Source of the DNA: Antedon mediterranea
Lineage: Eukaryota; Echinodermata; Crinoidea; Comatulida; Antedonidae
Assembly: GCF_964355755.1 (NCBI RefSeq)
Contig: NC_092676.1
Location: forward strand, 1,780,288 to 1,844,287
Direction: 5' to 3'
Length of the DNA: 64,000 bases
Made by a program: the position numbers and the translations under genes. The notes beneath the pieces are model-generated. The model was not told the origin of the DNA. It saw nothing but the letters and a program-made list of their open reading frames with translations, and ran no database searches. Numbering within the stretch: position 1 is the first letter of the stretch; each line of letters opens with the position of its first letter. This document shows positions 5,145-61,531 of this stretch, piece by piece.

Positions 5145-8100
5145 ATGTTTACTACACAACGATGGATTTTGATTCTATTACTTCTAACAGTTTCCATAAG
5201 TTTGGTTTCCACTGCAACTTACGAAAGAAAAGTTGCAATTATGAAAGGAGATATCATGTTTGGAGCTTTGTTTTCCCTGCACGATCCACCAGAGAGCGGC
5301 TCCAGAGTTTGCGGGATGATCCGAGAACAGTACGGAATACAAAGAGTTGAGGCAACGTTTAAGACGTTAGAAGAAATAAACAACAATACGAAGATTCTAC
5401 CGAATATAACTTTAGGTGTAGAAATACGGGATTCCTGCTGGTATGAACAAGTAGCATTAGAACAGAGTATTAACTTTATCAGTGACTCGATACAAAAAGA
5501 TGCTGAACCAGACACAAAGCAAGAAAACCAAAACTGCAGCAAAAGAACCACAAAACCAATTGTAGGTGTTATAGGCCCGGGGTCAAGCCAGGTCACGATC
5601 CAGATCCAAAATCTTCTTCAGTTATTTTCTATTCCACAAATTGGATATTCCGCAAGTAGTCCTGATCTGAGTAATAAAAAGTTGTATCAATATTTTTTAC
5701 GAGTGGTTCCGTCAGATAAACTTCAAGCTCGCGTTATGGTGGACTTTTTAAAAGAGTTTAACTGGACGTTTGTACATGCAGTGCATTCAGACGGTAGGAA
5801 TCTTTATTTATACTTCCTAATGTTGAAAGTCAGATTTGTTATTCTAAAGCTCTGTCTACACTATCAAACTTTATGCGACAACAAAATGTGATGTGGCCAT
5901 ATATGGACACGATGATGTCATATCACTACCATATTTGAGAATATCACTACCATATTTGGGCACATCACACTTTGTTGTCAAATTAGTTTGATAGTGTAAA
6001 CAGAGCTTTAGGTATATATAACTCAGTCTACAGTAAGTACCGTAAATATTTATATCAACATTTGAAATACATACATTTTTTACAAAAGAATGGAACTCAA
6101 TCAAAGGTTTTTATATTCCACAGGTTTTAATACCATAATTTACATATTCATATTTTTTATTTTTCATCGTGTCAATAGCCAATCATTAGGTCTATAAATA
6201 CAGCGCATTATACATTTTTGTTCAAAGCAATATTCATAACAAGTGTCAAAATAATGGAATTTTAATGCATATAGCTATATCCATCGATTGACGATCATAA
6301 AATAAGACTCCTTTCACATGATTTTTATGTTAATAAATATCTAGATTGCGTTCACATGAATATCATGTTTCTTATGAATATCAAGTCTAAGTTTGATATT
6401 TTATAAATATCTTCACAATTTTAATTTCTAAATAACTAGACTGCTTCCATAAAGATTTTGTTACATTTTTCCTAAAAACCTGTCTGTGCCTGTGCACGGT
6501 ATTATTTCACTTATAGGTTTGTATATATCATCAAACATATCATTCGCTTCCCTTGCGATTATAGCAACACTTGGCTTTCATAGCGTATTATACTTTCTTG
6601 ATGATGGTGCCAGAATTATTATAGTCCAGCTTTTCTGTGTAATTTGCTTCACATCATTGCCATCTTGTGGATTCAAATGACGGTGTACAGATCAATTTTC
6701 TCATTAAAAAATATCGTTCTAATAATGGCCAATGTTTGCACTGTTTGCATTGCGCACCGTTGCACAATGCGCACCGTTGCATTGAACACCACTGTACTGC
6801 GCACTGTTGCACAATGCGCACCGTTGCATTGAGCACCATTGTACTGCGCACTGTTGCATTGCGCATCGATAAAATGTGCACCTTTACATTGCGCACCATT
6901 ACACTGCGCGCTGTTGCATTGCGCAATATTGCATTGTACACCGTTTTATTGCGACCATTACTCGTACATTTTCGGAAACACCGAATTTGCACATTAAATG
7001 CTAGTATTAAGCTGAATGCCAATGTGCAACTTATTAAACACACTCTTGATCCATATTCATATCTTTTACTGTATATAATTAATTACAATATGAAAACAAA
7101 TTTAGCTGACTGTCCTTTAGACAAGAACGTTAAGCCGTTGGTCACGTGCATTACAAATTTACGTACATCTGTCTGTATAAATAATCTAGTATAAATTATA
7201 CTAAATTACCCATTATAATGAATGGCTATAATGTATCTATATTTTGGATTATTTATAATAGTGTTACCCATTATAAAAGCCATCCATCAGATATTTCTAT
7301 TACCCCATGGGACACTGAAGACTTAACGTCATAATCGCTTCATGATTGCTCCTCTCCAAATATAATGTTTCCACACATCCCACAAATACATATTTGACTA
7401 CGTTAAATTAAGGTTGTTGTTTTAGTAGTAATGTGTTGTCGATGCATTCAAGTGGATTTTCTTTATGCATCGCAAGTTATAGTTGCTACTGTTTGTCACA
7501 GCAGTTAAGCAACGATATATCATTCGAATCATACTTGATATAGCAAATGTACAATTCTTTTGACAACCACTCACAGCATATTATCAATAATTTTTATGCA
7601 AAATATCTCAATCGAGTTTTTGTTTCATATATTGTTATTCTGTCATTGATATGAACATGAAGGACGTGACAGTATTAATTAATATTTTTGAGAGATATTG
7701 AGAAATCAATGTACTTCCTAAATAAATCAAGATTATTTTGGCCTAAAGCTTTGTCTTACACTATCAAACTAGTTTGACAAATATGGTAGTGATATGATCA
7801 AATATGGTAGTGATATGCCTAAATATGGTAGTGATATGACATCATCATGTCCATATATGGGCACATCACATTTTTTTGTCACATAAAGTTTGATAGTGTT
7901 GACAGAACTTAAGTTCAGATGCTTATAGGCTTTGGCTATAGGTGTGTTACGCGGGGCATGGCTAAGAGGAAGATATATCAAATTTGGTTATATTGAAGAG
8001 ATTTGGTAAAAGTGAAGAATCATCTTGGAGTAGATATTATAATTGAAATATGTGGCAGAAAAGTACATATACAACACTAACGACTACCAAATAACGATTA

Positions 8101-60800: not shown

Positions 60801-61531
60801 GAATGCTAGTTATGGAAAGGAATTAAAATCTTTTATTATACAGAGACGCTAAGCAACAACAAAATAAATAGAAACAAGTTCAAGTTCTATACTAAATAAT
60901 ATTGCCCTTTTCTTTTTTTGATATTTTAAAGTACAGTAAAATACAGTATATGGTTTGAAATTATTTTTTTGTTTGTTCAAACTTAAAAAGTTAAAAATTC
61001 ACATAAAAATACAAAAATAAAGTTAAATCTCAACAGGGTAAAATCTTTAAGTTGATTGATATATCATCAAGACATGATTGCTCATAAAATATTTAGCAAA
61101 TAAATCATTTATTCTGTCTGTCATGTGTACATAATGTGATTTAGTAACAATCACAGCTTAATGAATGTAATAATGTTGTGGCAGATAACATTTACTATCT
61201 CCCCTCTCAGGCCTAAGTACGATAACAACACTACAAATGAAATACACAATTCCTAAGTTTGATCTTATTTCTCCATGGTTTAAAACACTGCTCTAATCTT
61301 TGCATAAATTTGCATAAATTAACAAAGCAGACCCTTAACAGAGATACTACTACAGCTAAATGTTCATTTTGATAAATTTTCTAGTTTTATAAGGAACAGC
61401 ATTTTTTATTAAAAAAGGAAGGAAATACATAAAAACACCTTTTCCTTTCATTTTTAGTAATTTCTTACCGAGAATGGTAGACAGAAACTCGATATATTCC
61501 CTTGCGTCCGGTCACAGACGACACAACGCCC
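51864..61531 (-). CDS. Connector enhancer of KSR (CNK), C-terminal part
   Basis: Membrane-linked scaffold of the Ras-Raf-MAPK and Rho/Arf pathways. Exons (minus): 61531-61469, 59762-59560, 58930-58549, 57713-57623, 57228-57043, 56909-56827, 55924-55758, 55315-54803, 52923-52736, 52604-51864; 2617 nt, 871 codons after a split first codon. The first visible exon (VVSSVTGRKGIYRVSVYHS) is entered in mid-codon, so the gene continues upstream; the SAM, CRIC and PDZ domains of the family are not in the window. The PH domain spans three exons: VSCIDLGPGQYEGWLEKK, WTPFWCVLKDLAFYYYKSK, KPFIFSAESKKDLDSWVEKL. The C-terminal RDP...LQRTIKAKQSEL...WK segment matches the CNKSR1 coiled-coil tail (RDP...LQSTLKAKLQEL...WK). 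The last exon is acidic and has two copies of the 15-residue unit NNVVEEDRIGDTAVE. The closest vertebrate paralogue (CNKSR1/2/3 or IPCEF1) cannot be chosen, so no symbol is given. Confidence 0.85.
52230..52335. repeat. 45-bp in-frame tandem repeat in the CNK last exon
   Basis: Two near-identical 45-base units and part of a third encode the repeated peptide NNVVEEDRIGDTAVE. The length preserves the frame. Confidence 0.9.
54061..54192. mobile_element. Family A MITE, copy 16
   Basis: Symmetrical copy in a CNK intron. Both ends read CTAGTTTGACA / TGTCAAACTAG inside the outer CTGTCTACACTATCAAAC termini, so it is a longer perfect inverted repeat than most copies. Confidence 0.85.
56096..56281. mobile_element. 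Family B MITE, reference-quality full copy
   Basis: The best preserved single copy: TAAAGCGTGGTTCCCACTGG to TCTAGTGGGAACCAAGCTTA, about 185 bases. Nested inverted arms are TTGACCAATCACAAGCGATG and TTCGCTTGTGATTG, then CTTCGCTTGTCATTGGTTAA. It lies in a CNK intron. Confidence 0.9.
57768..57930. mobile_element. Family A MITE, copy 17
   Basis: Lies in the CNK intron 55 bases upstream (on the minus strand) of the exon at 57713. CTGTCTACACTATCAAAC opens it and GATAGTGTAGACAGAGCTTTA closes it. Confidence 0.85.
58200..58445. repeat. Imperfect direct duplication, about 70-85 bp, spaced
   Basis: CAATCTTTTGTGTCAAACAC...GTGGGACATTAGAAAACT...AACTAACAATAGAA at 58205-58287 recurs at 58374-58441 with small deletions. 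It lies in a CNK intron. Confidence 0.7.

Follow-up and report, generated by a model that had tools for sequence, protein, structure and literature searches.

Gene content of the window

The window, that is, the whole 64 kb stretch of DNA that was analysed, is located at 1,780,288-1,844,287 of chromosome C7 in a genome of 18 contigs and 354 Mb. It contains six genes, GRM1/5, NUP43, a VGLL1-3-type gene, HTATSF1, RWDD1 and CNK. The features are as follows, in window coordinates.

5145..26159, + strand: GRM1/5, a multi-exon gene for a group I metabotropic glutamate receptor (ANF_receptor E 1e-33, 7tm_3 E 3e-63)
28832..31547, + strand: NUP43, WD40 nucleoporin (NUP43-labelled chains E 6e-63 and 7e-63)
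35233..36912, - strand: VGLL1-3/Vestigial-type gene with TONDU motif (Vg_Tdu E 1e-14)
37537..38457, no strand: 15-bp minisatellite of 62 copies between VGLL and HTATSF1 (Tandem Repeats Finder)
41482..45543, - strand: HTATSF1 (Tat-SF1), with an RNA-binding domain and a second, UHM-like one (HIV Tat-specific factor 1 E 4e-71; RRM_1)
46891..49445, - strand: RWDD1 (RWD E 4e-14; RWD domain-containing protein 1, 2ebm, E 2e-20)
51864..64000, - strand: 3' part of CNK (connector enhancer of KSR) (PH E 6e-9, SAM E 2e-8, CRIC_ras_sig E 3e-9)

An earlier note on this DNA had named the same six genes in this order; the gene families and their compactness are borne out by domain and solved-structure matches in the window, and two details had to be corrected, the end of CNK and the reading of the VGLL gene as VGLL2-like.

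In the solved-structure search the 7TM exon of GRM1/5 (23845-24810) scores 340 bits with mGlu1 and 336 with mGlu5, against 258 with mGlu2, and the remaining class C 7TM matches in the genome have at most 45% identity to GRM1/5. The gene thus appears, by score rather than by gene tree, to be the class C receptor nearest mGlu1/5. A Homer-binding C-terminal motif is typical of vertebrate group I mGluR. The long C-terminal tail exon of the host gene (25.2-26.16 kb) matches no Pfam family at E up to 1, a search which a divergent short Homer-binding motif could escape. Among solved structures, NUP43 matches best a pore protein that carries the label 'MGC154553 protein | Nup42' (E 2e-68), ahead of the NUP43-labelled chains.

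For the VGLL gene the exon ends given are the limits of open frames, and the model may lack a 5' exon. Vg_Tdu has one match across the 354 Mb, at C7:1816933-1817022, and the gene has a single TONDU motif; it belongs to the VGLL1-3/Vestigial subfamily and not to VGLL2 specifically. The C-terminal domain of HTATSF1 by itself matches HIV Tat-specific factor 1 (E 3e-11). As for CNK, the earlier note ended it at 61.5 kb. The 3' limit of the gene is uncertain (an acidic open frame), and in the other direction the gene extends past the window to 81587 (81.6 kb), with CRIC and SAM exons there; the SAM exon lies at 81.4-81.6 kb (C7:1861704-1861874). SAM, PH and CRIC are above cut-off and PDZ is below it (17.4 bits vs 23.2). 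Linked by position and strand alone, the SAM, CRIC and PH regions probably belong to one CNK gene.

Flank genes and copy number

With 250 kb of flanks, 314 kb were fully read (C7:1,680,288-1,994,287). The flanks hold three more identifiable genes, TTK, the PET-LIM gene 'Etes' and CHORDC1, so that nine genes were identified outside tandem arrays, besides two further gene-like segments without assigned identity. LATS and EED were sought deliberately, their host positions not being known beforehand. The targeted search placed the LATS pro-ortholog at C7:1.480-1.484 Mb, 0.3 Mb left of the block, and EED at C7:2.159-2.162 Mb, 0.3 Mb right of it. Eleven identified genes (LATS, TTK, GRM1/5, NUP43, VGLL, HTATSF1, RWDD1, CNK, Etes/FHL, CHORDC1 and EED) therefore span C7:1.48-2.16 Mb, a range sampled outside the 314 kb.

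The PET-LIM gene matches PET (E 1e-15), LIM (E 2e-43, in 4 stretches) and LIM_FHL2-3_N (above cut-off). Its best solved structures are FHL2 (E 5e-27), skeletal muscle LIM-protein 3 (E 6e-22) and TESTIN (E 1e-21), in this order. According to the published account (PMC3305314), the terminal LIM domains of Etes are homologous to FHL proteins, which have no PET domain. Six LIM domains are described there for Etes, and not all of them were located in the host gene. Given its PET domain ahead of LIM domains that are FHL-like towards the end, the host gene fits Etes, the ancestor of FHL1 and FHL5. CHORDC1 was recognised by CHORD matches (E 6e-22 in 2 stretches, and a weaker one in another frame) and a CS match barely above cut-off (E 4e-4). 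Its solved-structure matches are weak (SGT1 E 1e-5, CHORD containing protein-1 E 0.025); by its domain matches the protein combines CHORD domains with a CS domain.

Copy number was checked for seven genes (NUP43, HTATSF1, RWDD1, CNK, CHORDC1, GRM and VGLL). In the genome-wide protein search the matches of NUP43, HTATSF1, RWDD1, CNK and CHORDC1 are confined to the block; no second copy of the six window genes was found in the genome, and for GRM none that is group I-like. Each of the seven genes is thus a single locus in the host.

Human counterparts of the block

Positions were taken from papers for 11q14, the LATS1-NUP43 region and the mouse X interval; the other human positions are general background. 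We take GRM1, NUP43, VGLL2, RWDD1 and CNKSR3/IPCEF1 to lie at 6q22-q25, TTK at 6q14, FHL5 at 6q16, FHL1 at Xq26.3, and LATS1 at 6q25.1, adjoining NUP43. On Xq26.3, HTATSF1 and VGLL1 are presumably neighbours on a common strand, HTATSF1 first, with FHL1 close by, in an interval which we assume to be free of RWDD1, CNK, NUP43 and GRM. RWDD1 is presumably near VGLL2, with several unrelated genes in the interval between them.

On these human places, most of them assumed, each of the nine non-array genes identified in the 314 kb has a family member in human at 6q, Xq26.3 or 11q14. The match to human 6q claimed by the earlier note is upheld as a link of 6q and Xq26, and is too narrow as 6q alone, since the counterpart comprises 6q, Xq26.3 and 11q14. 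In the host, HTATSF1 and VGLL are adjacent on a common strand, HTATSF1 first. This pair, for which the earlier note had named Xq26.3 as counterpart, is the only one for which the human genes presumably have the same adjacency, order and orientation. The remaining block genes depart from the presumed human 6q order, so that preservation of the pre-duplication order, also proposed there, is supported only for HTATSF1-VGLL.

Some of the places come from published work. In human, CHORDC1 (11q14.3) is 1.1 Mb from GRM5, and EED is at 11q14.2 (PMC4574176); LATS1, NUP43 and KATNA1 share one human region (PMC6013502); and FHL1, HTATSF1 and VGLL1 are inside one mouse X critical interval (PMC9601528).

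Linkage tests across the genome

Is the match to 6q a property of the whole chromosome? A prediction set of eight families was fixed before testing, and none of its five resolved genes is on C7: CTSC is on C9, PCMT on C10/C11, RSPH4A on C10, ASF1 on C6 and SF3B5 on C11. Two families gave no match in the genome (MAP7 and MMGT1, absence not being implied) and PEX3 was left out. For PCMT both the C10 and C11 rows were kept, PCMT1 and PCMTD being indistinguishable. The radial spoke family has a second, weaker row, also on C10. In a second round, chosen afterwards, five of eight resolved genes are on C7 (LATS, EED, AMD1, SOD2 and DYNLT1), and three are elsewhere: HPRT1 (Xq26) on C1, and HDAC2 and EYA (both 6q) on C11. 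Five further genes, RPS12, CCNC, KATNA1, BCKDHB and MYB, had no match among the best 22 of 67 or the best 23 of 315 candidates. Note that some rows were dropped from these counts: four C6 rows for HDAC, judged HDAC3-like; a C7:20.02 Mb row (59%) for LATS, taken as an NDR-like kinase; and, for TUBG1, rows with identities of 35-44% that were taken as other tubulins, including seven on C7 (24.36-24.43 Mb). The C1 row of TUBG1, at 83%, was counted.

Over all rounds, 5 of 13 resolved test genes are on C7, which makes up 8.6% of the genome (P 0.003; 7 more genes without match), and 2 of 13 are at most 0.4 Mb from the block (P 4e-4). Controls gave 0/6 on C7, with about 0.5 expected. The five genes on C7 all come from the second round, the prediction set having failed (0/5). 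There is no clean 6q chromosome, because six of the ten test genes from 6q that were resolved lie elsewhere than on C7, RSPH4A (C10) and PCMT (C10/C11) included; human neighbours of NUP43, RWDD1 and GRM5, namely PCMT, RSPH4A and CTSC, are on other host chromosomes. The chromosome-wide match of C7 to 6q is weak, and a simple 6q chromosome was rejected, with 8 of 13 resolved test genes off C7.

Could the whole match then be chance with selective recall, given that gene-rich windows can be matched post hoc to some human arm? The human arm was indeed picked after the genes were seen, and the written follow-up predictions gave 0/5 resolved on C7. Against this, five of the six window families have a 6q member, with a rough P of 5e-7 to 2e-6 (with assumed sizes of the human families and 6q taken as 2.2-3%, post hoc, and assuming no ancestral linkage), two of the three flank genes on 6q alone give a rough P of about 0.01, and LATS and EED lie on opposite flanks. 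Chance is very improbable, and was rejected because of the flank genes.

Origin of the block

The best explanation, to which we give a probability of roughly 0.83, is that a pre-2R segment is present here in a single, unduplicated copy, and that its genes came to be divided in human between 6q, Xq26 and 11q14. The ancestral segment would have been copied in the two vertebrate whole-genome duplications. Housekeeping genes (NUP43, RWDD1, HTATSF1, TTK and EED) would have been kept on one copy only, and developmental and signalling genes (VGLL, GRM, CNK, FHL and LATS) on several; mixing with genes of other ancestral chromosomes would then have spread the survivors over 6q14-q25, Xq26.3 and 11q14. 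In the host the segment would never have been duplicated, and its genes would for that reason still be together. The observed gene identities, linkage, seven single loci and flank genes may in this way be explained by inheritance of the linkage from a common ancestor, by 2R and by reciprocal loss, with human copy numbers and places that are mostly assumed. The failure of the prediction set, and the places of HPRT1, HDAC2 and EYA off C7, speak against this explanation.

A serious contender, somewhat short of even odds, is that only macrosynteny is conserved: the genes would share an ancestral linkage group, and their closeness would be chance within a conserved chromosome, with no preserved block or order. 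It shares common descent with the best explanation and denies the block. AMD1, SOD2 and DYNLT1, all 6q genes, fit it, being on C7 but 5-22 Mb from the block, so that 6q-type genes are spread along C7, and the conservation of linkage groups among chordates is an established fact (PMC7269912). It does not readily explain why LATS and EED, whose host places were not foreknown, are both at most 0.4 Mb from the block, nor why GRM5 and CHORDC1, about 0.15 Mb apart in the host (GRM1/5), are 1.1 Mb apart in the human table. The closeness of FHL1, HTATSF1 and VGLL1, presumed for Xq26.3 and seen in the mouse X interval, also argues against it.

What might have kept such a block together? Putative long-range enhancers of VGLL, perhaps also of GRM or LATS, within HTATSF1, RWDD1 or NUP43 could pin these genes as bystanders, each post-duplication copy retaining different ones. 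The reciprocal split of bystanders, HTATSF1 by VGLL1 and RWDD1 presumably near VGLL2, is what a genomic regulatory block would give. Neutral slow rearrangement, however, yields an identical pattern; several unrelated genes presumably occupy the human VGLL2-RWDD1 interval, and in the host the gene of RSPH4A type lies on C10. We regard this regulatory constraint as quite unlikely. A broader scenario is doubtful, though less so: the bilaterian ancestor may have had a neighbourhood of at least 11 genes within 0.7 Mb, present here almost whole, of which human Xq26.3, 6q22/6q25 and 11q14 would be reciprocally thinned copies. Shared regulation may have kept the linkage, since the block has both the Hippo-pathway kinase LATS and the TEAD cofactor VGLL.

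If the unduplicated pre-2R segment is confirmed in other phyla, it would offer a single-copy template with which the vertebrate 6q/Xq26/11q14 paralogon could be read. Such a template would tell missing ohnologs and whether the neighbours of VGLL and LATS are regulatory bystanders, and would identify later-arrived human neighbours, the RSPH4A-, PCMT- and CTSC-type genes being on other host chromosomes.

Relation to known systems

Conservation of synteny is a familiar phenomenon, to which the block adds a well-defined locus and not a principle. A literature search, with subscription papers and supplements outside its scope, found no description of the block in the titles and abstract openings listed. 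Irimia et al. in 2012 reportedly described ancient metazoan microsynteny blocks in which unrelated neighbour genes remain linked across phyla, and the present block resembles them in linking unrelated neighbours. In the chordate ancestral linkage groups of Simakov et al. 2020 (PMC7269912), the genes of one invertebrate chromosome correspond to several ohnologous vertebrate segments. The host region appears to behave likewise, but with a local signal, over 0.7 Mb, in which the rest of C7 shares only in part.

A duplicated ancestral segment has also been inferred around the Grm1/Grm5 ohnologs from Rab32/38-Grm1/5 vertebrate microsynteny; that paper reports no synteny conservation of Rab loci in invertebrate deuterostomes except a Rab32LO-Tim9 trace (PMC4728774). 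The Grm1/Grm5 pair is common to both systems, but the host partners differ, being NUP43, VGLL, CHORDC1, EED and LATS, and no Rab gene was recognised by eye in the stretch read. A further likeness is with human Xq26.3, in HTATSF1 presumably followed by VGLL on a common strand with an FHL family gene nearby; that interval differs in presumably having no RWDD1, CNK, NUP43 or GRM. The host Etes also carries a PET domain, unlike the FHL proteins (PMC3305314).

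Gene content of the block and its human counterparts

All six genes named in an earlier note were found in the window, gene by gene, by domain matches and by chains of solved structures. The flanks covered were 100 kb on the left side of the window and 150 kb on its right. A codon score, for which nine presumed exon pieces from the window were the training set, served to rank segments; these were then read by eye, a procedure by which genes may be missed, and TTK, a PET-LIM gene and CHORDC1 were recognised there.

Genes of the block, with one repeat within it (positions relative to the window; negative, left of it)
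Window, plus strand: GRM1/5, with receptor domain and 7TM domain (Pfam)
Window, plus strand: NUP43; pore chain labelled 'MGC154553 protein, Nup42' (E 2e-68), NUP43-labelled chains (6e-63 and 7e-63)
Window, minus strand: VGLL, Vg_Tdu motif
Window 37537-38457, between VGLL and HTATSF1: 15-bp C-rich minisatellite, 62 copies, giving long spurious open frames
Window, minus strand: HTATSF1; HIV Tat-specific factor 1, E 4e-71
Window, minus strand: RWDD1; RWD domain-containing protein 1, E 2e-20
Window and beyond, minus strand: CNK; SAM and PH above cut-off, CRIC, and a weak PDZ
About -27 to -16 kb (left): TTK; TTK chains, E 2e-56
148-171 kb (right): PET-LIM gene; PET and LIM (Pfam), best chain FHL2, then skeletal muscle LIM-protein 3 and TESTIN
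174-178 kb (right): CHORDC1; CHORD (E 6e-22) and CS, with weak solved-structure matches

The 7TM exon of GRM1/5 scores 340 bits against mGlu1, 336 against mGlu5 and 258 against mGlu2, and the SAM exon of CNK lies 17.6 kb past the window end. The TPR-like 5' exons of TTK occur in two closely similar copies at about -20.2 to -15 kb (L008-L009 of the fetched stretches), which suggests a partial tandem duplication.

Where do these genes lie in human? All nine identified genes appear to belong to a set made up of 6q, Xq26 and 11q14. On 6q we take TTK to be at 6q14.1, FHL5 at 6q16.1, RWDD1 and VGLL2 at 6q22.1, GRM1 at 6q24.3, NUP43 at 6q25.1 and CNKSR3 at 6q25.2, while Xq26.3 presumably carries FHL1, HTATSF1 and VGLL1. 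For 11q14, a published table gives EED at 85.96, CTSC at 88.03, GRM5 at 88.24-88.80 and CHORDC1 at 89.93 Mb (PMC4574176). Two other papers place human LATS1 in one region with NUP43, KATNA1 and PCMT1 (PMC6013502), and the same four genes at one cattle locus (PMC8446201). In mouse, one critical interval on X holds Fhl1, Htatsf1 and Vgll1, according to PMC9601528, and PET-LIM 'Etes' proteins are thought, in PMC3305314, to be the source of the FHL family by loss of PET.

Copy number and gene order

Is the block present once? A joint genome query was built from exons of the block itself, with TTK and the PET-LIM gene left out, and returned 37 rows. For NUP43, HTATSF1, RWDD1, CNK and CHORDC1, all rows lie inside the block. 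For GRM, 7TM rows elsewhere in the genome are at most 45% identical, and Vg_Tdu has a single match genome-wide. It is possible that the query missed paralogs of block genes.

Read along the minus strand, HTATSF1 precedes VGLL by about 4.6 kb; at human Xq26.3, HTATSF1 is presumably followed by VGLL1 on one strand. This is the sole adjacency for which a match to human can be claimed. Because the remaining order (GRM and NUP43, then VGLL, HTATSF1, RWDD1 and CNK) appears to differ from that of human 6q, the 'pre-duplication order' proposed earlier is kept as a hypothesis.

Linkage beyond the block

The genome has 354,431,138 bases in 18 contigs, and C7, the contig that holds the block, has 30,548,870, with the window at C7:1,780,288-1,844,287. 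In the first round, eight families expected on C7 were set down before testing and seven were searched, PEX3 being left out. None of the five resolved families is on C7: CTSC is on C9, PCMT on C10 and C11, RSPH4A/6A on C10, ASF1 on C6, and SF3B5, placed by a protein query rather than a family profile, on C11. MAP7 and MMGT1 gave no match.

Genes of the second round were chosen afterwards, AMD1 being searched by Pfam together with 12 human protein queries. Five are on C7: LATS, EED (2.16 Mb), DYNLT1 (6.96 Mb), SOD2 and AMD1. LATS is a plus-strand kinase gene at 1.4801-1.4835 Mb (1.48 Mb), with 85% identity over 160 residues to the LATS1 kinase region of the query; EED is on the minus strand at 2.159-2.162 Mb (Polycomb protein EED, E 5e-72). 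HDAC2 and EYA are on C11 and HPRT1 on C1, and the protein queries for RPS12, CCNC, KATNA1, BCKDHB and MYB had no match among the top candidates that were scored. SOD2 (23.58 Mb) and AMD1 (23.94 Mb) are 0.36 Mb apart. Both are presumably on human 6q, and this stretch is possibly a second 6q-type patch on C7.

Over both rounds, C7 holds 5 of 13 resolved genes where 1.1 are expected (P 0.003), with 7 more giving no placement, and two of the 13 are less than 0.4 Mb away from the block (P 4e-4); these P values depend on assumed family sizes and on selections made once the data were known. None of six controls from other arms is on C7 (RPS6 C11, TPI1 C3, PCNA C6, RPSA, ATP5F1B and TUBG1 C1), where no more than about 0.5 would be expected. 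The counts leave aside rows judged to come from other family members: four HDAC3-like rows on C6, an NDR-like kinase row at C7:20.02 Mb (59%) and tubulin rows of the TUBG1 query at 35-44% identity, seven of these on C7 at 24.36-24.43 Mb.

The outcome is two-sided: there is local agreement with the 6q/Xq26/11q14 set, but chromosome-wide disagreement for 8 of the 13. LATS, which in human is beside NUP43, and EED, near GRM5, are local to the block here too, while the genes off C7 include the human neighbours RSPH4A (by RWDD1), PCMT1 (by NUP43) and CTSC (by GRM5). Counted by human arm, C7 holds 4 of the 10 resolved 6q genes and 1 of the 2 from 11q14, and the one Xq26 gene (0 of 1) lies elsewhere.

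Most simply, material from several ancestral chromosomes would be mixed in the human regions, and one of these ingredients would survive at this locus as an unduplicated copy. Vertebrate duplications would then have been followed by reciprocal loss, by which HTATSF1 would have been kept only beside VGLL1 and RWDD1 only near VGLL2, with CHORDC1 and EED left near GRM5.

Tandem arrays and mobile elements around the block

A coiled-coil gene at 113.7-116.8 kb matched no Pfam family, and the sole match of gene-like segments at 180-184 kb was a sub-threshold acyltransferase. Most other flank sequence with a coding-like score belongs to transposons or to receptor-like genes in tandem arrays. One receptor-like family forms two arrays flanking the block, at -80 to -28 kb (L002-L008, plus strand) and 185 to 214 kb (L024-L026, minus strand). 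By eye, its members have a Cys-rich ectodomain, one transmembrane stretch and a Tyr-rich tail; no Pfam family was above cut-off in the five scanned. In some members the tail consists of 84-bp (28-aa) coding repeats, as at L007:8590-9553 (11.5 copies, 97% match) and again at 200.1-205.3 kb. Each repeat bears a tyrosine motif (..TDYVSxDTVIENKRLQNARNENRETAEQ..), and the tail may possibly be a repeated phosphotyrosine docking tail.

Another tandem array, distinct from these, occupies 88-112 kb (L013-L015, minus strand) between CNK and the PET-LIM gene. It encodes at least five proteins, and all five that were scanned have Ig domains above Pfam cut-offs. The stretch at 121.8-126.2 kb (L016-L017, plus strand) holds a long retroelement, which by eye is DIRS-like, with frames resembling reverse transcriptase and a tyrosine recombinase, and further reverse-transcriptase-like fragments occur within the receptor-like arrays.
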